Of a stretch of DNA of 39,236 nt, positions 29,104-39,236 are shown piece by piece. The translations under genes were made by a program, and so were the position numbers. Location of the stretch: NCBI GenBank assembly GCA_938039915.1, contig CALHUA010000064.1, forward strand, positions 1 through 39,236, written 5' to 3'. How positions within the stretch are numbered: the first letter of the stretch is position 1; each line of letters begins with the position of its first letter. The stretch is from an uncultured Anderseniella sp. Lineage in GTDB: Bacteria > Pseudomonadota > Alphaproteobacteria > Rhizobiales > Aestuariivirgaceae. The notes beneath the pieces are model-generated. The model saw only the letters and a program-made list of their open reading frames with translations. It made no database searches and had not been told where the DNA came from.

Positions 29104-29123
29104 CTTAATTGAAAGGTGATCCC

Positions 29124-30230
29124 ATGACAATGTCCCGACGCAAGGCAATCAGTCTGATCGGTGGCGGCACAGTTCTCGCCGCCACTGCAGCCACAGCCGG
29201 TTTTCTGACGACCCGCACTCCACACTCAGCCCTGAAACCATGGAAGGCAGCAGGCGATTATTCGGAGCCGAGGAAATTTGCCTTGTCCTACGCCATCCTG
29301 GCGCCCAACCCGCACAACCGGCAGCCATGGATTGTTGATCTGAGACAGGAGGGAAAAATCATCCTGTTGCGTGATCCACAACGCAACCTGCCGATGACCG
29401 ACCCCTATAATCGGCAAATTACAATCGGGCTCGGTTGCTTTCTGGAGCTGATGAGCATAGCCGCAACACAACAGGGCCTGGGCGTGAAGCATGACCTGTT
29501 CCCGCAAGGCGAAGATGGCCCGGTTGCGATTTCAACGTTCACACCGGGAGCGCAACCTGATCCGCTGTTTTCGCAAGTCATGCAGCGACGCTCGTGCAAG
29601 GAACCATTCGAAGACCGGCCCGTTCCTGCTGATCTCGCAACCACGCTTGCAGACTTCGCAACCATCATCGACCAGGCAGATCCCGTCGCGGCACTTCGCA
29701 AGCTGACCTGGGATGCTTTTATGGTCGAAGCCATGACGCCGCACACGATGCGCGAGAGTGTGGACCTGATGCGCTTCGGCAAGGCCGAGATCGACGCCAA
29801 TCCCGACGGAATTGATCTGGGTGGCCCGTTCCTCGAAACCCTGATGCTGGCAGGCCAGCTCACCCGCGAAGATCAGCTGGATCCATCCTCGAACGGCTTC
29901 CAGCAAGGCATCGAGATATACCGCGACATGCTGGCGGCCACGCCTGCTTATGCCGTTCTGACCAGCACGACCAATACCCGCGCCGACCAGATCGATGCCG
30001 GACGCAAATGGCTGCGGCTCAACCTGATGACCACACGTCTGGGCCTGGCGTTACATCCGGTCAGCCAGGCCCTGCAGGAGTATCCGGAAATGGCGGCGCA
30101 CTACAATACGGCGCACGACATGCTGGCTGAACCCGGTCACACTGTTCAAATGCTGGGTCGACTTGGTTTTGGACCGAAGGTACAACAAACACCCCGGTGG
30201 CCACTTGAGACCCGAATAGCGCATGGATGA
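29124..30230 (+). CDS. Tat-exported Acg-type nitroreductase-like protein
   Basis: A 368-residue protein with a twin-Arg leader (MTMSRRKAISLIGGGTVLAA, Arg5-Arg6, then a hydrophobic stretch to about residue 28), so it is probably exported folded with its flavin. The mature part follows the Acg/nitroreductase-like layout: FALSYAILAPNPHNRQPWIVDL near the start (the nitroreductase APSxxNxQPW flavin-binding motif), a helical middle, and RKWLRLNLMTTRLGLALHPVSQ before the end, another FMN-contact block. AAGGTGAT just upstream fixes the ATG at 29124. It may reduce quinones or nitro compounds; physiological substrate unknown. It is first in an operon with a MarR regulator (8-bp overlap) and a LysE-family exporter, and is preceded by a striking double operator. 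Confidence 0.85.
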   Translation: MTMSRRKAISLIGGGTVLAATAATAGFLTTRTPHSALKPWKAAGDYSEPRKFALSYAILAPNPHNRQPWIVDLRQEGKIILLRDPQRNLPMTDPYNRQITIGLGCFLELMSIAATQQGLGVKHDLFPQGEDGPVAISTFTPGAQPDPLFSQVMQRRSCKEPFEDRPVPADLATTLADFATIIDQADPVAALRKLTWDAFMVEAMTPHTMRESVDLMRFGKAEIDANPDGIDLGGPFLETLMLAGQLTREDQLDPSSNGFQQGIEIYRDMLAATPAYAVLTSTTNTRADQIDAGRKWLRLNLMTTRLGLALHPVSQALQEYPEMAAHYNTAHDMLAEPGHTVQMLGRLGFGPKVQQTPRWPLETRIAHG

Positions 30231-30699: not shown

Positions 30700-31320
30700 A
30701 TGGAGTTTTTGATCCCCCTGATTACGCTGTGGGCCGCACAGCTGCTGGCGGCCATCAGCCCGGGCCAGTCATTCGTGCTGATCTCCAAGCTTGCCTTGTC
30801 GAACCCGAGACCCGTTGCGCTTTCTGCAGTCATGGGCCTGGGGGCTGGAACCATCATCTGGTCAACGGCAGCGATTGCCGGTCTCGCCATTGTGCTGGAA
30901 CACGCAGCCTGGGCCTACACAGCCTTCAAGATCGCCGGTGGTGTCTATCTGCTGTTTCTGGCCATCATGCTGTGGCGCCATGCTCGAGATCCGGTCGAAC
31001 TGGACCCGGCCCGCCAGAAGCAGGTCAGGCCATGGCCCGCCTTCATGCTGGGCCTTGCCACGCAACTGGCCAACCCGAAGGTAATTGTATTTTTCGGTTC
31101 GATTTTCGTGGCGCTGCTGCCTGCTCACTCGCCTTTGTGGGTCTACGTGGCCGCCGTCTTCATCGTGTTCAGCAACGAGATCGGCTGGTATGCCATCGTC
31201 GCCATGTTGTTTTCCGTGAAAAAATCCCGCAATGCCTATATTGCCGCCAAGACATGGATTGACCGGGCCATGGGCGGTTTTCTCGGCCTGATCGGCGCGC
31301 GGCTTATTGCTGACGCCTAA
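30700..31320 (+). CDS. LysE-family exporter
   Basis: A 206-residue inner-membrane protein with about six hydrophobic segments and the LysE/RhtB pattern: LLAAISPGQSFVLISKLALS at the start (Ser-Pro-Gly in the first helix), GLGAGTIIWSTAAIAGLAIVL, FKIAGGVYLLFLAIMLWRHA, and GLATQLANPKVIVFFGSIF with the Asn-Pro-Lys of the second half. It probably exports an amino acid or related compound. As the last gene of the nitroreductase-MarR operon, it may remove a product or substrate of the nitroreductase. Its TAA overlaps the TAG of the convergent desaturase gene by two bases. It is a different branch from the LysE-family protein at 21048. Confidence 0.9.
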   Translation: MEFLIPLITLWAAQLLAAISPGQSFVLISKLALSNPRPVALSAVMGLGAGTIIWSTAAIAGLAIVLEHAAWAYTAFKIAGGVYLLFLAIMLWRHARDPVELDPARQKQVRPWPAFMLGLATQLANPKVIVFFGSIFVALLPAHSPLWVYVAAVFIVFSNEIGWYAIVAMLFSVKKSRNAYIAAKTWIDRAMGGFLGLIGARLIADA

Positions 31321-32210
31321 CGCCCCAGTTGTTTCGCGAATTTGGCATTGAACCGCGCATAACCGTCCTCGGTTACCTGCAGGTGCTCGCGCGTTCTGGC
31401 GTGAAACGCCGGTAGCTTGTGATATGGCACAGCCGGGTAGGCATGATGTTCGGCGTGATACGGCATGTTCCAGGCCAGCCAGCGTACCACGCGGTTGGTA
31501 AAGGTGGTTCGGGTGTTTTCAAACATGTTGGCGACGTATGCACAGCGGCCGTGTTCGGCCAGCAGATAAAGCCGCAAGAACGGTTGACCTAAAAGCAGCG
31601 GAACAATCCATGTCCACAGCAACATTGTCGACCCTGTCCAGAGAGACCCGGCAATCAGGCTCACATAAAATACGATCATGAGTTGCGCCTCGCGCATGAC
31701 TTTCGCCCTGCCACGCGCCGGTACAAAGCTGTCATCGTTGGTCCGCGTCGCGTTGCGAAACATCGCCATTAGCTGCCCCCGCCACACAGCGAGCCCGGAA
31801 ATGTGCACAACATATTGCGCGATGGTTTCAGGCTTGGGTTCGGCCAGTTCCGGATCCTTGTCGGGCTCCTGGGTAAACCGGTGATGAGCCAGATGGAAAT
31901 ACCGGAACCAGTCTGCCGGCAGAAAGAGAATGAGGCTGCACACCCGCCCGACCAGCTTGTTGAGCCAAACACTGCGAAAAGGTGTCAGGTGAACAGTCTC
32001 GTGCAGCAGAGTGAACAGAAACACCTGCTGTATGCCAAGCGGCAGCATCAACAGCTGCCAGCCCGGCATTTGAGTCGTGATCAGCCAAAGCAACATCCCC
32101 ATGCAAACGACATGCTGGAAAAGTCTGATCAGCCCCGGTCGATCGGACAATTCGGTCAGTTCTTTGCGCTCATCACCGCTCAGGGATGCAAGCAGATGTT
32201 TGTGATCCAT
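31317..32210 (-). CDS. Membrane fatty acid desaturase family protein
   Basis: A 297-residue integral membrane protein with the three His boxes of the di-iron desaturase/hydroxylase family: HETVH at 70-74, HLAHHRFTQ at 106-114, and HAEHH at 252-256. Hydrophobic stretches flank the boxes at about 33-68, 89-100 and 176-218. Type-1 membrane desaturases introduce double bonds into lipid acyl chains using O2 and electrons from a ferredoxin or cytochrome; related proteins act on other lipids or carotenoids, so the substrate is open. The ATG at 32210 has no good ribosome binding site. It lies 29 bp downstream of the HyuA gene on the same strand and could share its transcript. Confidence 0.9.
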   Translation of the reverse strand: MDHKHLLASLSGDERKELTELSDRPGLIRLFQHVVCMGMLLWLITTQMPGWQLLMLPLGIQQVFLFTLLHETVHLTPFRSVWLNKLVGRVCSLILFLPADWFRYFHLAHHRFTQEPDKDPELAEPKPETIAQYVVHISGLAVWRGQLMAMFRNATRTNDDSFVPARGRAKVMREAQLMIVFYVSLIAGSLWTGSTMLLWTWIVPLLLGQPFLRLYLLAEHGRCAYVANMFENTRTTFTNRVVRWLAWNMPYHAEHHAYPAVPYHKLPAFHARTREHLQVTEDGYARFNAKFAKQLGR

Positions 32211-32239: not shown

Positions 32240-34252
32240 TTAAAGTGCCGGACGTGCCGTTGCCTCGATCTTCACCGTGGCGCGCAGCAGACCGTTGTCA
32301 TCAACCGCATCCGGCAGCAGGAATTTCTCAGTATCTTCTGCGAAACTGACCTCACCACCGCCCATGGCACTGACCTGCGCGCCCGCGGTCTCGCGCGCCA
32401 GCCGATTGGCTTCATCTATTGCATCACTGGCACTCGCAAACTGGGTCACGCTGTGCGGTCCGTGCACCCTGAACACACCCGCCCCATTACCGTTGACTTC
32501 GATTGTCACCGTGCGCGCGATCAAACCCGTTGCCGCACCAACCGCGTTTGCCACTTCGCACGAGTTCGGGAATACCATTTCGCACTCAAGCCGCTTGCCG
32601 ACTTCCGGATAATAGATTTTCACCGGGCCGCCGACGGCAACCACCGGCACCTCAGGTGAAATAGACACCCGTGCCAGAGACCGCCTGCCCTCACCCCGGC
32701 ACACAACATCAATCAGGCCACCGGCATTGCCGGGTTCAATTGCATGGTGTCCCAGCGCGGTTTCCAGAACGGCTCGTCCGGTCAGGCGGACGGTTTCTTC
32801 CCATACCCGTTGCGCAAGCTGTGTGACGAGTTCATCGGACGGTGCTTTCTGAAACACGTTTCGCACCAGCAACTGTGCTGCCAGCACGGCTGCTTCGCGC
32901 GACCAGTTATTCTGCAATCCCAGTACGTGAGCCGCATCGGACGGTGTAAATCCGGCAAGCTGCACATGGCCTTTACGGGACAAGGCTTCCAGAGTGCGGT
33001 GCGCGCCCGATCCGGCAGCCAGTTGGCGCAGTGCCGACGGCTCCGTCGTAATGCTTTCAAGCAGTTCCTGCTCGCGCTTCGACAAGCCGGCAGGTTGAAC
33101 ATCACCGGCCACCCGTCCAAGCGGCAACATGACAAACTGCCCGGCCATGGAACCAGACTCGGCATCCGAAATATCGTCTTCAAGCTGCTGCATGACACGC
33201 GGAAACCTGCTGGCGATCAGCGACACCGGAACCGACCGGCGGGCACCAACAGTGGCGACGCCCTTGATGTCGAACGCCACTTCGCTGTCACCGCCAAGCC
33301 CGAGTGTGCGCACATCGATCGCCTGCACCATGGTGCGCCATCCGCCAACGTCCGCACCTTGTTCATTGACTTGCGGGCGGCCGTTTTCCAGCACCCCCAG
33401 ATCGGTCGTCGTCCCGCCCATGTCAGACAGGATGAAATCACTCAGGCCCGACAGGGTGGCAGCACCGACAAGGCTCGCGGCAGGTCCCGACAATACGGTT
33501 TCGATGGGACGAAGCGCCACTGACTCTGCTCTTGCCAGGGAACCGTCGCCCTTGGTCATCATCAGGGGCGCATCTATGCCAAACCGCGTCATGGCGTGTT
33601 GCACAGCCTTGATAAGTAGCGAGATACGCGAGATCAGGCGTGCATTGAGGGCTGCCGTCAGCGCCCGTCTGGGCGCGTCCAGGGCAGATGCCAGTTCAGT
33701 CGATACAGTAACCGGCAGGGAGGTTTTTCCGGTAATGAAATCCCGCGCTGCCAGTTCATGTGCCGGATTGCGGACAGCAAACTGTGACGCAACAGCAAAA
33801 GCCTCGACACCAGAAGCGTGTTTTGCAACCACGTCGGCGAGTGCCCCGGTGTCCAGTTTCTCGACCTCGCCCCCATTGTGATCATGACCACCGGCAATGC
33901 GCTCAATCACCAGTCCCGGAAACGCCGAACTCAGGCCCGACCGCTGCACCATGGTTTCGTCAAAACCGACAAGCACGACACAGACCGGGGATCCGTGGCC
34001 TTCAACGACTGCATTGGTGGCAAGAGTAGTGGAAACCGACACCAGCCTGACCTGCGCTGCCGCGTCGTCGTCACTCAAGGCGGACAATACCCGCTCCATG
34101 GCTTCACAAACACCAACCGCCAGATCACCGCGCGTGGTCAGCGCCTTGGCACTGGCCAGCACCTCATTGGTTGCAGCGTCCATAACCGCTGCATCCGTAT
34201 AGGTTCCACCGGTATCTACGCCGATGAGATAAGACTTTGTCGAACCGCTCAT
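32240..34252 (-). CDS. Stand-alone hydantoinase/oxoprolinase HyuA-type subunit
   Basis: Starting at the ATG at 34252, with AGAGGA just upstream, a 670-residue HyuA protein. The N-terminal nucleotide-binding IGVDTGGTYTDAAV is at residues 10-23, the second block FILSDMGGTTTDLGV lies near 270, and the C-terminal Hydant_A_C region follows, ending in EGAGVFRVHGP-like strands. HyuA proteins need a HyuB partner to hydrolyse N-methylhydantoins or 5-oxoproline with ATP, or act in acetone-carboxylase-like complexes. No hyuB-like gene is next to it: upstream is uup, downstream a desaturase. It is a different branch from the 5-oxoprolinase HyuA half at 6739. The partner may be elsewhere, or the protein may act alone. 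A longer frame to 34312 adds 20 residues without homology. Confidence 0.88.
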   Translation of the reverse strand: MSGSTKSYLIGVDTGGTYTDAAVMDAATNEVLASAKALTTRGDLAVGVCEAMERVLSALSDDDAAAQVRLVSVSTTLATNAVVEGHGSPVCVVLVGFDETMVQRSGLSSAFPGLVIERIAGGHDHNGGEVEKLDTGALADVVAKHASGVEAFAVASQFAVRNPAHELAARDFITGKTSLPVTVSTELASALDAPRRALTAALNARLISRISLLIKAVQHAMTRFGIDAPLMMTKGDGSLARAESVALRPIETVLSGPAASLVGAATLSGLSDFILSDMGGTTTDLGVLENGRPQVNEQGADVGGWRTMVQAIDVRTLGLGGDSEVAFDIKGVATVGARRSVPVSLIASRFPRVMQQLEDDISDAESGSMAGQFVMLPLGRVAGDVQPAGLSKREQELLESITTEPSALRQLAAGSGAHRTLEALSRKGHVQLAGFTPSDAAHVLGLQNNWSREAAVLAAQLLVRNVFQKAPSDELVTQLAQRVWEETVRLTGRAVLETALGHHAIEPGNAGGLIDVVCRGEGRRSLARVSISPEVPVVAVGGPVKIYYPEVGKRLECEMVFPNSCEVANAVGAATGLIARTVTIEVNGNGAGVFRVHGPHSVTQFASASDAIDEANRLARETAGAQVSAMGGGEVSFAEDTEKFLLPDAVDDNGLLRATVKIEATARPAL

Positions 34253-34364
34253 GTTTCCTCTGCCATGAAATATGCCACGGGCATTCGTGAGCAATGCGTG
34301 ATGTTGATGCAAAGGTAAAGTGCCAGCACGCCCGGATTGCGGAAAACGGTGCCTGCCCGTCGTG

Positions 34365-36188
34365 TCAGCTGTTCAGTTCCTCACGCAGCATTTCCAGTTC
34401 CAGCCAGCGCTCTTCCGCCTGGGCCAGTCTTGTTTGTGCAGCCTTGAGGTCCGCCGCTGCGGCCTCAAACCCTGCCGGGTCAACTGAATAGAAATCCGGC
34501 ACCGCCATCTTTGCCTGCAGCGCGGCAATACAGTCTCCAAGCACCTCTATCTCATTCGGCAGTGTTTCCAGGGCGTGTTTGTCCTTGAAGGACATTTTGC
34601 GTTTCTGCGCTGCGGGCGGACTGTCCGGCGCACCAGACGCCCGGACCGTCTTGTGCACAGGTTTCACGTCCCCGGCCTGTTTGACTTCCGCCCTTGCCTC
34701 ACCGGCCTGACGCATCATGTCCGTATAGCCGCCGGGATATTCGCGCCACATGCCGTTGCCCTCAAAGGCAAGCGTTGATGTAGCCACCTTATCTATGAAA
34801 TCGCGGTCATGGCTGACAAGCAGCACTGTGCCGGCATAGGACGACAACAGTTCCTGCAGCAGGTCCAGTGTCTCCAGATCAAGATCATTGGTCGGTTCGT
34901 CCAGCACCATGAAATTTGACGGCTTCGACAAGGCACGGGCCAGCATGATGCGGCCGCGTTCTCCGCCGGACAGGACATCGACAGGCGTGCGCGCCTGTTC
35001 AGGGCGAAACAGAAAATCCTGCATCCATGACATCACATGGCGCGCTTCACCGTTGACGATCACCTGGTCCGAACCGCCACCGGTCAGCGCGTCGCGCAAC
35101 GTCGTTCCCGGTGTCAGAGATGTGCGGTCCTGTTCCAGTGACACGATTTCAAGATTGGTACCGAGCCGCACTGATCCGGTGTCCGGCGCCAACTGTCCGG
35201 TAATCAGGCGGATCAGGGTTGTCTTGCCGGCACCGTTCGGCCCGGTGATGGCGATACGGTCCCCGCGCAGCACCCGCAGGTTCAAGTCACTCACGATGGC
35301 CCGGTCGCCAAATGACTTTGACAGGTTCCTGGCTTCGATCACCAGCTTGCCGGACGCGTCGGCATCGCCGGAAGACAGGTTGACATTGCCTTGCGCACGC
35401 AAAGCCGTGCGACGCTTTTCCCGCAGCGCTTCCAGATCACCCAAGCGGCGCACATTGCGCTTGCGCCGGGCCGTAACGCCATAACGCAACCAGTGTTCCT
35501 CGCGAACAATCTTGCGGTCCAGCTTGTGCTGTTCGCGTTGTTCTTCCTCCAGGACCTCATCGCGCCAGGTTTCAAAGTGAGCAAAACCACGGCCCATGCG
35601 CCGCGCCGTGCCCCGGTCGAGCCACACTGTCGTCTGCGACAGGTTTTCCAGAAAACGCCGGTCATGGCTGATCAGCACCATCGCCGAGCGCAGTGATTTC
35701 AACTCTGCCTCTAGCCATTCGATGGCCGGCAGGTCAAGATGGTTTGTCGGCTCGTCCAGCAACAGGATGTCGGGTTCCGGTGCCAGTACCCGGGCCAGTG
35801 CTGCACGGCGCGCCTCGCCGCCGGAAAGATGGGCGGTATCCTCGTCGCCGGTCAGCGACAACTGCTCCATCAGGTAATTGGCGCGATACTCGTCATCACC
35901 TTCTGTCAAACCTGATTCAACGTAAGCGCGGACAGTTGAGAACCCCGTAAAATCAGGCTCTTGCAAGAGATATCTGATGGTCGCTCCAGGTTGAAGAAAG
36001 CGCGTACCACTGTCTGCCTCAACATCTCCGGCAGCAATCTTCAGCAGCGTGGACTTGCCTGATCCATTGCGCCCGACCAGACAGATGCGCTCACCGGCAG
36101 ACGCACTCAGGTCTGCGCCTGCCAGCAACGGCCTGCCGCCAAAGGTCAGCGTGATATCCTGCAATGTCAAAAGTGGCGGTTGAGCCAT
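34365..36188 (-). CDS. uup: ABC-F ATPase Uup-like
   Basis: A 607-residue ABC-F protein with two nucleotide-binding domains: Walker A GRNGSGKST at 39-47 and GPNGAGKTT in the second, signatures LSGGEARR and LSGGERGR, Walker [13 protein letters not shown] and [12 protein letters not shown]. The linker is short and charged (REEHWLRYGVTARRKRNVRRLGDLEALREKRR), characteristic of Uup. The C-terminus ends with a helical coiled-coil domain after a Pro- and Ala-rich linker (KMSFKDKHALETLPNEIEVL...), matching the Uup C-terminal domain that binds DNA in vitro. Uup acts on ribosomes and affects transposon excision in E. coli. It is the second ABC-F protein in the window. It starts 37 bp after the DUF3726 gene on the same strand, possibly the same transcript. 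Confidence 0.93.
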   Translation of the reverse strand: MAQPPLLTLQDITLTFGGRPLLAGADLSASAGERICLVGRNGSGKSTLLKIAAGDVEADSGTRFLQPGATIRYLLQEPDFTGFSTVRAYVESGLTEGDDEYRANYLMEQLSLTGDEDTAHLSGGEARRAALARVLAPEPDILLLDEPTNHLDLPAIEWLEAELKSLRSAMVLISHDRRFLENLSQTTVWLDRGTARRMGRGFAHFETWRDEVLEEEQREQHKLDRKIVREEHWLRYGVTARRKRNVRRLGDLEALREKRRTALRAQGNVNLSSGDADASGKLVIEARNLSKSFGDRAIVSDLNLRVLRGDRIAITGPNGAGKTTLIRLITGQLAPDTGSVRLGTNLEIVSLEQDRTSLTPGTTLRDALTGGGSDQVIVNGEARHVMSWMQDFLFRPEQARTPVDVLSGGERGRIMLARALSKPSNFMVLDEPTNDLDLETLDLLQELLSSYAGTVLLVSHDRDFIDKVATSTLAFEGNGMWREYPGGYTDMMRQAGEARAEVKQAGDVKPVHKTVRASGAPDSPPAAQKRKMSFKDKHALETLPNEIEVLGDCIAALQAKMAVPDFYSVDPAGFEAAAADLKAAQTRLAQAEERWLELEMLREELNS

Positions 36189-36225: not shown

Positions 36226-36849
36226 CTAGTCGTTGTCAGTCAGGCCCGCGCCTGCACCCTTGAGCCGAGAGGCCTCACTGGCAGGTACGTAAGTGCGATG
36301 AGCGAAGGCCGACAGGGCTTCCCATATATCGTCGGCAATGTCCACGGCTCCCGGTTGCCAGCGATGAGTGGCTTCTTTTGCAGGTTCACTGCTATCGATC
36401 GAAACCTGATCAGCCACTTTTGCATCCGGAGCGCCGTCAACAAGAAATCCTTCATCGCACGAGCGGATGGTGCACCCGCTCCAGTTGAACACGACATTGT
36501 CGAATGCCATCAGGCAAAACGGCACCAGCAACAATGGCGCTTGAACCTGGCGTAACTTCACTGCTTGCGATTGCGCGCCCAGATCTGAGATGAACGCGCC
36601 GACGAGAGCCGGACACATCGGACGGTCCGCCTGCCACCATTCGGCTTGCGTGGACTGAGGCCTCAATTTCTCACAAGGCACACCATCACTGGCGATCAGG
36701 AGATCGAGCAACGACGCAGCACCGGGCAGGCGCAGGGCTTCCAGTGTCGACATGGCACGGCCCGCCTCCTGCGCGAGGCCCCAGGGACGCCCTGCTCCCC
36801 ACGCCGCTTTCATCGCCATGACTTCCGCTTCGTTGAGGGACACGATCAT
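36226..36849 (-). CDS. DUF3726-family protein
   Basis: A 207-residue cytosolic protein. The N-terminus IVSLNEAEVMAMKAAWGAGRPWGLAQEAGRAMSTLEALRLPGAA is the DUF3726 opening, with the conserved AAxGAGxxWGLAxEAG block. The rest has a helix-strand pattern with PLLLVPFCLMAFD and no recognisable catalytic motif. Function unknown. Its ATG overlaps the stop of the upstream 573-residue gene (ATGA at 36846-36849), and that gene overlaps the HDAC-like gene, so all three are very likely made together. The co-occurrence argues for a shared biochemical pathway, perhaps polyamine-related; this is inference. Confidence 0.75.
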   Translation of the reverse strand: MIVSLNEAEVMAMKAAWGAGRPWGLAQEAGRAMSTLEALRLPGAASLLDLLIASDGVPCEKLRPQSTQAEWWQADRPMCPALVGAFISDLGAQSQAVKLRQVQAPLLLVPFCLMAFDNVVFNWSGCTIRSCDEGFLVDGAPDAKVADQVSIDSSEPAKEATHRWQPGAVDIADDIWEALSAFAHRTYVPASEASRLKGAGAGLTDND

Positions 36850-38567
36850 CTGAGCTGGGCTTCGTCAAACAGTGGCCAGGCCCAGTCATCTGCATCCATT
36901 TCTGCTATCTCATCCGGGAATGGCGCATCGGCAAACATGGTAATCCGCACCCAGCGATCAGATTTAGGATCAAATCGCGAAGCGCCGAAAAACGCCAATT
37001 TACAGCGCAGCATATCAATCGGCATCATGGTCGCCGACAGAACATTATCGTGTATTTCCGCATAGGGAAGCTTGGCTGCAAGCTGTACCCGGCGCGCAGC
37101 ATGACGATGCTCGGGATGACGCAACAGGAATTCAGCCAGCAATGTGCCTGCCGGTTCAGCCTCAAGTACCGCCATCATCCTGGCGACCTCCCGGCCAATG
37201 CCAAGGCGCTGTTCGAGTTCAGCACCGTCTTCCTCGTGTCGTTCGCCCAGCCGCGGTTCAAGCTTTTCTTCCGATACATACCAGAACCGCGCGGTCTGAT
37301 CTGCCAGGTTGAAGTCCGTTGCCAGCGCCCAGTCAAAATGCCTGGCGGCCAGACCGGCCAGCACATCGACGCGCATTTTACCGTCTATGGAAAACACCTG
37401 CCGTTCATCCGCGGCCATGTCACCGGCCAGGTCATCAACCAGGTCACCGTGGGGTTCGATCATCAAGGAGCATACTGCCTCCTGCCCCTCCAGGGTCAGA
37501 TTGGCGGCAGCCCACAGGTATAGCTCGTTCCACGGTTCTGCGCCCTCCAGGACCCCAGTCTCCAGATGGGTTTTCAGCTTGTCGAAATCACCGGCAAGTT
37601 CGCATACCCGCTCGGACTGGCGTTCGTCCGGTGTGTGCCAGCGCTCAAGTCCGGCATGGGCTCGGTCCAGTTGCTCCCGAAACCGATTGATCGTTTCGGA
37701 ACTGGCGGCCGGTAGTGCCCGGACCCGTGCCAGGGCTGTTTCCCGCGCCGTTATCCAGGCATTCAGCAAGGCGGGATGGGTCACCAGAAACGGCGCCATG
37801 CCAAGCCCCGTTGAATTTCCAACTCCGAGCCGCCTGCGAATTTCAGGGTCAAGCGGAACCGCATCCGCGCCTCCCCTGATACGCGCCATGTGTTCAACGA
37901 TGTCCACCGTAAAGGTGCGGATCAGCCACACCGCCAGCAGCTCAACCCGGAACGGCCCGCCGGCCTCTTCACGCGCTGCATACAGATCCCTGTCAGCCAG
38001 GCCGAACTTGCCATTGCCATAAACCGCAGTGGTGCGCATCAGGTAACCGACTTTATCTATTTCCGCCACATCAGGCTGGCGGCCTTGCGACAGGCAGTCG
38101 GCAACATGATCGAACAACCGCACAGACCTGTTGGCGCGCGACAAAACCAACTCGCTCGCGGCGCACCGGCCTGCCTCCTGTTTCGGCACATTGCCACGCA
38201 ACCGGTCAATGTCTGCCTTGGTCGGAACACCGTCGAACAGGGCAAATGTTGCATCCCACTCAGTGGCAATAACCCGGTCGGAGCGTTTTTCCGGTGGCAG
38301 ATCATTGGCATAGGCGATCAGTGAATAGGTCCGTTCAGGCCCGCGTGCTTCATAAACGCCGACGCCAACACCCTTCTCATCCACATCCCACAAGGTGCAT
38401 TCCACCTGCCAGCCTTCGCGCTTCACCCGGCGCAGGATGGCGCGCATGAACGAAAGCCGCGTCTGGTGTGATGCGCCCATGCGGGCCAGCCGCATAACTT
38501 CTTGCGGTGTCCGCATCAGTTCGCCGACACGTGCCTCGTCAGGTAGCGCCAGTATCGCATCAGCCAT
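36846..38567 (-). CDS. Unrecognised 573-residue protein in an operon with an HDAC-like gene
   Basis: From the ATG at 38567 (AAGGA seven bases upstream) this is a 573-residue soluble protein that I cannot place in a family. It is acidic, helix-rich, without signal peptide or membrane segments. It has a charged middle with a short repeat-like VSEEKLEPRLGERHEEDGAEL region, and a C-terminal MFADAPFPDEIAEMDADDWAWPLF tail rich in Asp and Trp. I see no Walker motif, helix-turn-helix or metal-binding His cluster. The gene overlaps the HDAC-like gene upstream by eight bases and the DUF3726 gene downstream by four, so it is translationally tied to both. It may be a partner or carrier for the deacetylase. 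Confidence 0.72.
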   Translation of the reverse strand: MADAILALPDEARVGELMRTPQEVMRLARMGASHQTRLSFMRAILRRVKREGWQVECTLWDVDEKGVGVGVYEARGPERTYSLIAYANDLPPEKRSDRVIATEWDATFALFDGVPTKADIDRLRGNVPKQEAGRCAASELVLSRANRSVRLFDHVADCLSQGRQPDVAEIDKVGYLMRTTAVYGNGKFGLADRDLYAAREEAGGPFRVELLAVWLIRTFTVDIVEHMARIRGGADAVPLDPEIRRRLGVGNSTGLGMAPFLVTHPALLNAWITARETALARVRALPAASSETINRFREQLDRAHAGLERWHTPDERQSERVCELAGDFDKLKTHLETGVLEGAEPWNELYLWAAANLTLEGQEAVCSLMIEPHGDLVDDLAGDMAADERQVFSIDGKMRVDVLAGLAARHFDWALATDFNLADQTARFWYVSEEKLEPRLGERHEEDGAELEQRLGIGREVARMMAVLEAEPAGTLLAEFLLRHPEHRHAARRVQLAAKLPYAEIHDNVLSATMMPIDMLRCKLAFFGASRFDPKSDRWVRITMFADAPFPDEIAEMDADDWAWPLFDEAQLR

Positions 38568-39236
38568 TCTCAAATCCTTCCAGCACGTTCACCGTGTTTA
38601 TGCCGATTTCTTCCACTGCATATCCGCCTTCCATGCAAAACAGGGTCGGCAGCTTCAGCTTGGCAATGCGGCTGCCATAGTCGGTAAAATCATCCGACCT
38701 GAGCTTGAAGAAGCTGATCGGATCCCGTTCGAATGTATCAACCCCCAGCGAGACGACGAGCGCGTCCGGCGAGTAGGCTTCAATCCGCCTGATGGCGTCA
38801 TCCATGGCATTGCCCCATTCATCATACCCGGTGTTGGGCGGCATGGCGTAGTTGACTGTAAACCCTTCTCCCTTGCCGGCACCCGTCTCGTCCTCGTATC
38901 CCAGAAAGTGCGGGAATGCATGCTCCGGCGCGCCATGCAGCGACAGGAAAAGGACATCATCGCGATCATAGAAGATATCCTGGGTCCCGTTGCCATGGTG
39001 GAAATCAGGATCAAGGATCGCAACCCGCTTTGCCCCGTCATTGAGAAACATCTGGGCAGCGATGGCGGCATTGTTCAGAAAACAATATCCCCCATACATA
39101 TCCCTGGCAGCGTGATGACCAGGCGGACGGCACAAGGCAAACGCCGATCGCGCGCCTGATGCAACGACACGCTGGGCCGTTTGCGCAATCGCCGCACTGG
39201 CACATGCCGCTTCCCAGGTGCCGGATGTGATCGCGG
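38560..39236 (-). CDS. Histone-deacetylase-family acetylpolyamine amidohydrolase-like protein (5' end outside window)
   Basis: The 3' 225 residues of an HDAC-superfamily deacetylase; its start lies beyond the window. The Zn-site and catalytic motifs are visible in order: RPPGHHA (tandem His), GGYCFLNNAAIAAQ, ILDPDFHHGNGTQDIFY (metal-binding Asp and His and the active-site His-His), SLHGAPEHAFPHF, VVSLGVDTFERDPIS (metal Asp) and FCMEGGYAVEEIGINTVNVLEGFE. The wording GVDTFERDPIS and MEGGYAVEEIG fits acetylpolyamine amidohydrolase rather than acetoin-utilisation or histone type, so N-acetylputrescine, acetylspermidine or a related amide is likely; the residue proof is incomplete without the N-terminus. 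Its stop overlaps the ATG of the 573-residue gene by eight bases. Confidence 0.9.
   Translation of the reverse strand, partial: AITSGTWEAACASAAIAQTAQRVVASGARSAFALCRPPGHHAARDMYGGYCFLNNAAIAAQMFLNDGAKRVAILDPDFHHGNGTQDIFYDRDDVLFLSLHGAPEHAFPHFLGYEDETGAGKGEGFTVNYAMPPNTGYDEWGNAMDDAIRRIEAYSPDALVVSLGVDTFERDPISFFKLRSDDFTDYGSRIAKLKLPTLFCMEGGYAVEEIGINTVNVLEGFENG

Follow-up and report, generated by a model that had tools for sequence, protein, structure and literature searches.

The window analysed here is an entire contig of 39,236 bases from an uncultured Anderseniella sp. (assembly G000, in 258 contigs and 78% complete). Its right end carries three minus-strand genes which overlap successively by 8 and 4 bases: a gene of the HDAC family, a gene for a protein of a family without name, which we call M573, and a gene for a DUF3726 protein. 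The recurrent unit is M573 with DUF3726 and not the HDAC. Its two genes usually occur side by side, in many bacteria of sea and soil, and adjoin genes for the breakdown of small methylated nitrogen compounds. The pair probably forms a single catabolic enzyme that has so far escaped recognition, with the deacetylase as a rarer addition. The whole account, in which a two-subunit enzyme would act in the catabolism of N-methylated zwitterions and the HDAC would have joined it secondarily, we regard as having slightly better than even chances. The pair itself is real, conserved and little studied and offers a good structural lead, and the HDAC is a secondary attachment to it; the mechanism and substrate proposed below are inferred.

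The M573–DUF3726 gene pair

In the window the DUF3726 gene lies at 36226..36849 (minus strand, 207 residues; PF12525, E 1.7e-13, 50.7 bits versus a cut-off of 22.1). The M573 gene occupies 36846..38567 on the same strand if read from its ATG; the length of 573 residues given in an earlier note on this DNA holds for this start and becomes 575 with the upstream TTG (36846..38573). The HDAC-family gene (38560..39234, minus strand; PF00850, E 2.1e-62) is open at the contig end, with 224 residues present. The 8-base overlap between the HDAC stop and the M573 ATG (38560..38567, ATGGCTGA) and the 4-base overlap between the M573 stop and the DUF3726 start (36846..36849, ATGA) are exactly as that note described them. 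Its proposal that the three genes are coupled is supported by these overlaps together with the conservation of the arrangement in Anderseniella. A spacing of −4 between M573 and DUF3726 is also the commonest one in a sample of 80 loci.

These 80 loci are the best of 578 confirmed M573 relatives and were picked by similarity to the window, hence they are not an even sample. Together with 36 loci from the order and 50 from the class they make up 166 sampled neighbourhoods. The window's own place and genome G111 are not part of the order sample, and the 50 class places come from 48 genomes, fragments in G338, G347, G350 and G361 being left out. The sets overlap slightly, as locus L060 repeats L028 (genome G001) and L073 repeats L141. 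Neighbours were called by BLAST to a few reference proteins within 6 kb of M573, so that some genes scored as absent may have been missed.

Of 60 close relatives 18 carry M573, as do 33 of 249 order genomes and 53 of 385 class genomes, each count including the window's genome; the carriers in the class include small marine-type genomes and mostly have DUF3726 as well. A separate or fused DUF3726 lies near M573 in 79/80 best loci, 31/36 order loci and 40/50 class loci, and an M19 dipeptidase in 70/80, 29/36 and 45/50. The HDAC is near M573 in only 4 of the 80 best loci (one of them Anderseniella) and in none of the 36 and 50 others, and we therefore reject it as a constant partner. M573 also occurs in 168 plasmid records. 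Among 13 plasmid regions examined, eight have DUF3726 (one of them fused), four an unnamed protein of similar size, and one is unannotated; no HDAC is annotated in the 12 annotated regions. A search of viral contigs gave no match to M573. The literature searched held no paper naming DUF3726 and no description of the M573–DUF3726 combination.

The core is kept in records titled SAR116 and in two genomes of 1.2–1.3 Mb with 28–30% GC at the locus, which look like SAR11. At the loci of these two small genomes (L171, L172) the order is dipeptidase-M573-DUF3726, and a few genes separate this core from a sarcosine-oxidase alpha-like gene.

The M573 protein has no Pfam match at E ≤ 1, and its best NCBIfam model reaches 13.4 bits versus a cut-off of 50. 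An alignment of the window protein with 45 of the 80 loci (L074, L103, L120 and L135 are among those left out) has more than 100 columns that are invariant across its 46 rows, and many of these columns hold Arg, Asp, Glu, Trp or Gly; conserved stretches lie around MRTTAVYGNGKFG, GVGNSTGLGMAPF and SEEKLEPRLG. Structure prediction of the protein alone, which the earlier note had proposed, gave a confident model from the 46 rows (mean pLDDT 87.6, pTM 0.90) and no significant fold match. Against the PDB, Foldseek returned nothing under E 0.58 in a whole-chain search, which might miss a single known domain; VIA-align 2 on Foldseek's own candidates gave Z values of at most 4.6, and a viral structure library yielded nothing significant. 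The M573 profile is unrelated to the DUF3726 profile.

For DUF3726, the alignment of the window protein and 37 loci yielded from its 38 rows a model with pLDDT 88.5 and pTM 0.84. This model matches the type-2 malate/lactate dehydrogenase family in 15 entries (Z 10.1–13.4 over 157–183 residues). The top match has Z 13.4 and a root mean square deviation of 3.3 over 181 aligned residues, and the first unrelated entry follows at Z 4.0. With Foldseek the match is weaker, its best E-value being 1e-3. DUF3726 is thus predicted to adopt a shortened type-2 malate/lactate (DpkA-like) dehydrogenase fold. It resembles the enzymes YiaK, AllD and DpkA in this predicted fold but differs from such dehydrogenases in several respects. 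The matched chains have 313–361 residues, 105–155 of which are without counterpart in the 207 residues of DUF3726. In Pfam at E ≤ 1 there is no PF02615 match, and DUF3726 alone is listed. Finally, no His stands in invariant or nearly invariant columns of the DUF3726 alignment, which has a majority His near the C-terminus (FAHRTY). In the aligned DpkA-like set H48 of the SHG motif is invariant, a residue which we take to be catalytic in this dehydrogenase family. Since DUF3726 has no nearly invariant His and is shorter than the dehydrogenases it matches, it may well be a dehydrogenase-derived, non-redox subunit. Comparison of its profile with the DpkA-like genes of the same operons brings the N-termini into register, although the similarity is weak (E 0.00098, probability 22%). 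The conserved C-terminal tail (consensus APATEASRLxGAGAGLxDND) has the lowest confidence of the model, 56–65, as might be expected of a tail that becomes ordered on a partner.

The lack of a nearly invariant His, the short length of DUF3726 and the lack of a detected known fold in M573 would also suit a sensor, chaperone or regulatory complex which serves the dipeptidase pathway and is not an enzyme. The many invariant columns of M573, of a composition usual for an enzyme, argue against such a role, as does the fact that many M573 clusters have a LysR or IclR regulator of their own; we hold it to be improbable. We suggest that M573 and DUF3726 together make up a two-subunit enzyme because the genes are paired almost constantly and are fused in nature in Mesorhizobium (WP_199201047) and at three of the sampled loci (L085, L095, L120). 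M573 would provide the active site, in a fold without detectable solved relative, and DUF3726 would be the non-redox subunit whose conserved tail contacts M573.

Linkage to the HDAC-family gene

The window HDAC is without its 5′ part; 118 residues are lost at the contig end by comparison with L060, and the full-length HDAC in relatives has 342 residues. The full-length gene of L060 (7986-9011) aligns without gaps to the acetylpolyamine amidohydrolases of PDB entries 6phr (Marinobacter; E 2.5e-129) and 3q9b (Mycoplana ramosa; E 2.1e-127). All six residues H158, H159, D195, H197, D284 and Y323, the catalytic set of zinc ligands, His pair and Tyr, are present in both L060 and the window HDAC. These alignments bear out the earlier assignment to the acetylpolyamine amidohydrolase type, and judged from its sequence the window protein is likely to be a deacetylase. 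It is like the two bacterial enzymes in its near-full-length gapless alignment, its length and its catalytic residues, and differs in gene context, overlapping as it does with M573–DUF3726.

Each of the six Anderseniella genomes searched (that of the window and G001–G005; loci L027–L030) has the HDAC directly upstream of M573. In G005, M573 is split over two contigs and the HDAC adjoins its first part. The 8-base overlap recurs as ATGG(C/T)TGA in the window and three of the four Anderseniella relatives compared, the fourth having ATGA there. Because of this conservation and the recurring overlap we do not regard the arrangement as chance. Two public Anderseniella records carry an M573 gene 88% identical to the window's. 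In the Anderseniella relatives the HDAC is preceded on its upstream side by genes of the ChaN and GSDH families or by an M20 amidohydrolase. The amidohydrolase stands directly before the HDAC in two of these genomes (L029 6843-8087, L030 994-2238), and the one in L029 has high scores with allantoate amidohydrolase-type models.

Outside this genus, three loci in metagenome-assembled genomes of Rhizobiaceae (L066, L067, L101) have the order HDAC-dipeptidase-M573-DUF3726 with the HDAC at the head, and at this position their sister locus L070 has LysR|ALDH (a LysR regulator gene opposite an aldehyde dehydrogenase gene). The neighbourhood check proposed in the earlier note thus found the HDAC association in Anderseniella and separately in these three loci, and in no other sampled locus. 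On a FastTree tree of M573, built from 187 different rows with a minimum length of 500 residues, the HDAC label has to change three times, each change being forced by starred branches; on a quick tree of 37 HDAC rows the linkage label needs two changes. On both trees the HDAC-linked genes fall in two places, and the linkage therefore seems to have at least two separate origins, unless a single gain was followed by frequent loss. As the HDAC is rare near M573, whereas M573, DUF3726 and the M19 dipeptidase mostly stay together, it is a variant attachment and not the core of the system.

It may be asked whether the HDAC is an ordinary acetylpolyamine salvage enzyme which sits upstream of the pair by chance, the overlap being compact packing and the genes of its pathway lying elsewhere. 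Related HDACs (E ≤ 1e-50) are indeed common, in 70 of 150 order genomes, and M573 is near none of 13 HDAC neighbourhoods fetched from other genomes, several of which have PotABC-like genes. The absence of the HDAC from the sampled order and class loci fits as well, and so does the location of dipeptidase, ALDH and BCCT transporter genes on another contig of the window's genome. Against this stand the six Anderseniella genomes and the second linkage, separate on both trees, at the head of the same operon in Rhizobiaceae. Moreover, in order genomes an HDAC at least 65% identical co-occurs with M573 in 7/7 cases versus 18/142 others (Fisher 1.7e-6; relatedness uncorrected, with a base set of 149 genomes taken by listing order). 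These seven genomes fall in few families and have HDAC and M573 on different contigs, and such co-occurrence statistics lend weak support. On balance, we consider a chance neighbourhood rather unlikely.

In the window's genome a cluster LysR|ALDH-dipeptidase-BCCT lies on contig C6 (L275), which ends after the BCCT gene, and a second M19 dipeptidase of the same type on contig C90 (L276). The nearly complete genome G002 has the LysR|ALDH-dipeptidase-BCCT cluster without M573 beside it; G004 has a full second cluster, with a further copy of M573. Because the usual partners lie on another contig or at another site, the M573–DUF3726 pair seems to have been detached from them and linked to the HDAC in at least part of Anderseniella. 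A simple replacement of the dipeptidase by the HDAC is rejected: dipeptidases 74–79% identical to that of L066 are present elsewhere in all six Anderseniella genomes, and the Rhizobiaceae loci carry both genes.

A putative catabolic pathway

Public records annotate around M573 genes for LysR, ALDH, membrane dipeptidase, BCCT, Ldh-family, RidA and sarcosine-oxidase-family proteins and for a glycine-betaine ABC transporter. Within 6 kb, ALDH was found in 53/80 best, 11/36 order and 18/50 class loci, a DpkA-like Ldh in 21/80, 19/36 and 20/50, and BCCT in 30/80, 0/36 and 7/50; the transporters at part of the loci are BCCT or glycine-betaine ABC systems. The best NCBIfam model of the ALDH is 2,5-dioxovalerate dehydrogenase (478.6 bits, under the cut-off of 750), and the best PDB match of the Ldh is delta1-piperideine-2-carboxylate reductase (E 2.6e-54). 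The dipeptidase has its best PDB match in 2i5g, which we take to be P. aeruginosa PA5396. In 159 same-strand runs with M573, Ldh occurs in 48 and RidA in 14, never both (hypergeometric P 0.005, relatedness uncorrected), a pattern one might expect if an imine were removed either by reduction or by hydrolysis; this too is weak support. Next to the cluster of Ruegeria TM1040 and of Phaeobacter 2.10 stand sarcosine-oxidase-family genes and a gene for a helix-turn-helix regulator.

The window is like the LysR|ALDH-membrane dipeptidase-(BCCT)-M573-DUF3726-(Ldh) clusters of Phaeobacter and Ruegeria in the pair and its 4-base junction, and differs in having the HDAC in place of ALDH and dipeptidase, which lie on another contig. 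These clusters are annotated in public records; a description was not found in the literature searched. In Phaeobacter inhibens DSM 17395 the M573, DUF3726 and dipeptidase genes are at PGA1_RS19005-RS19015. A passage of PMC12093977 reports for Vibrio natriegens and Pseudomonas aeruginosa a dipeptidase and a hypothetical gene before dgcAB. A dipeptidase gene in methylamine/betaine catabolism would be common to that arrangement and ours.

The betaine transporters, the 2,5-dioxovalerate-type ALDH, the DpkA-like reductase, RidA and, less often, methylamine/betaine enzymes nearby speak for the catabolism of an N-methylated zwitterion rather than for the processing of polyamines. We suggest the following steps. 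A small N-methylated zwitterion would be imported through BCCT or betaine ABC transporters, and the M573–DUF3726 enzyme would work on it with the M19 amidohydrolase ('dipeptidase'). Further on, judging from the gene families, the ALDH could handle a C5 semialdehyde, and the DpkA-like reductase or RidA could dispose of an imine. An acetylpolyamine amidohydrolase would have joined the pair in Anderseniella and, independently, in some Rhizobiaceae. Most simply, it would set the amine substrate free by cleaving an N-acyl form of it, a role to which we give not quite even chances.

The earlier note had proposed an amide- or polyamine-processing unit. The coupling of the genes, the HDAC type and an association at the level of the genus stood; the HDAC as core enzyme did not, given its rarity near M573. 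A dedicated system of this kind built around the HDAC would account for the overlapping genes across Anderseniella and for an acetylpolyamine-type HDAC with intact catalytic residues. A flavin amine-oxidase-family gene (PF01593, 23682-24773) about 14 kb from the HDAC in the window can be added, as well as the PotABCD-like genes next to M573 in a distant branch and at a few further loci. Yet the HDAC is absent near almost all sampled M573–DUF3726 pairs, the M19 dipeptidase is the usual partner, and no PotABCD-like gene was seen in the stretches of 8–20 kb at the Anderseniella loci L027–L030. Among the 15 window genes scanned (20.8–39.2 kb) none is for polyamine transport or oxidation with the possible exception of the amine-oxidase-family gene, the upstream side of the HDAC being cut by the contig end. 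We consider a polyamine system with the HDAC at its core improbable. Polyamine-like substrates may still occur in M573 systems, since the distant branch and a few other loci adjoin the PotABCD-like transporters.

As a substrate in the N-methylated zwitterion pathway which we favour, homarine, going to N-methylglutamate, is our main but tentative candidate, with chances clearly below even. Ferrer-Gonzalez et al. (2026, Nat Microbiol) reportedly describe, for Rhodobacterales, SAR11 and SAR116, an operon homABCDER that leads to N-methylglutamate. In Ruegeria (L122, L139) a LysR gene stands opposite ALDH-dipeptidase-M573-DUF3726-Ldh, that is, five genes and a regulator. This number would fit homABCDER, a fit that is suggestive only; an N-methylglutamate product would also fit the alternative of Ldh or RidA. 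In R. pomeroyi, tmaR adjoins mgdABCD, and a passage of PMC13390433 reports that the N-methylglutamate dehydrogenase Mgd is involved in the catabolism of homarine. The literature searched gave no description of homarine genes matching the cluster, and passages in PMC12817926, PMC9038784 and PMC9723723 name none. A bolder version strikes us as unlikely. In it M573, an enzyme with a new fold, would open or hydrolyse a betaine or N-methylated heterocycle, either homarine or a related compound. It would need DUF3726 as a dehydrogenase-derived subunit which has lost its redox function and whose tail is inserted in the M573 active site, and the HDAC forms would extend the pathway to N-acylated amines. 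If the pair acts in homarine or betaine use, two orphan families would gain a function and carbon and nitrogen flow in the surface ocean would be concerned; the HDAC-linked form gives the deacetylase a testable small-molecule partner pathway.

Several points weigh against this pathway. The active-site role of M573, the substrate and the complex suggested by the pairing are predictions from gene context. ALDH, Ldh, BCCT and RidA accompany only part of the M573 loci, and there is no constant oxygenase, Rieske-type genes being near 0/80, 0/36 and 4/50 loci. The best NCBIfam model of the Ldh is L-sulfolactate dehydrogenase, far under the cut-off, and at locus L093 RidA has an Ldh-like gene next to it on the opposite strand. 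Few M573 loci have sarcosine-oxidase-type genes nearby, and the models do not separate Mgd from sarcosine oxidase. The distant M573 branch (Sinorhizobium, Alloyangia, Bosea; 30–34% identity) has, besides a dipeptidase and its polyamine-type transporters, an unnamed partner protein whose comparison with DUF3726 did not show a relationship. The homarine assignment, finally, comes from the reported homABCDER operon and a single passage on Mgd and is suggestive only.

Other genes near the unit

A fatty-acid-desaturase-family gene (31317..32210, minus strand; PF00487) is a possible partner of the HDAC-linked form, since the family is common to the window and the HDAC-linked Rhizobiaceae loci. Relatives 49–52% identical to the window's adjoin M573 in L066, L067, L070 and L101 and at no other fetched locus outside Anderseniella. 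Desaturase relatives at E ≤ 1e-60 occur in 19 of 150 order genomes, the window's included. The nearest NCBIfam model, far under its cut-off, is an arginine hydroxylase, and a comparison with PDB sequences gave no match.

Next downstream of DUF3726, in the window as in L027–L030, is a gene for an Uup-like ABC-F ATPase (34365..36188, minus strand; NCBIfam ABC_ATPase_Uup 617.5 bits, under the cut-off of 900), whose membership in the HDAC-M573-DUF3726 unit is doubtful. The same is true of the following gene for a HydA-type hydantoinase/oxoprolinase subunit (32240..34312, minus strand; PF01968 and PF05378); in L028 and L029 other genes intervene between it and the unit. A general Pfam scan found no HydB-type gene among the scanned neighbours of the window's HydA gene. 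Further to the left (29109-30230) an open reading frame of 373 residues, without Pfam match at E ≤ 0.001, lies beside a MarR-type regulator and a LysE-type gene.

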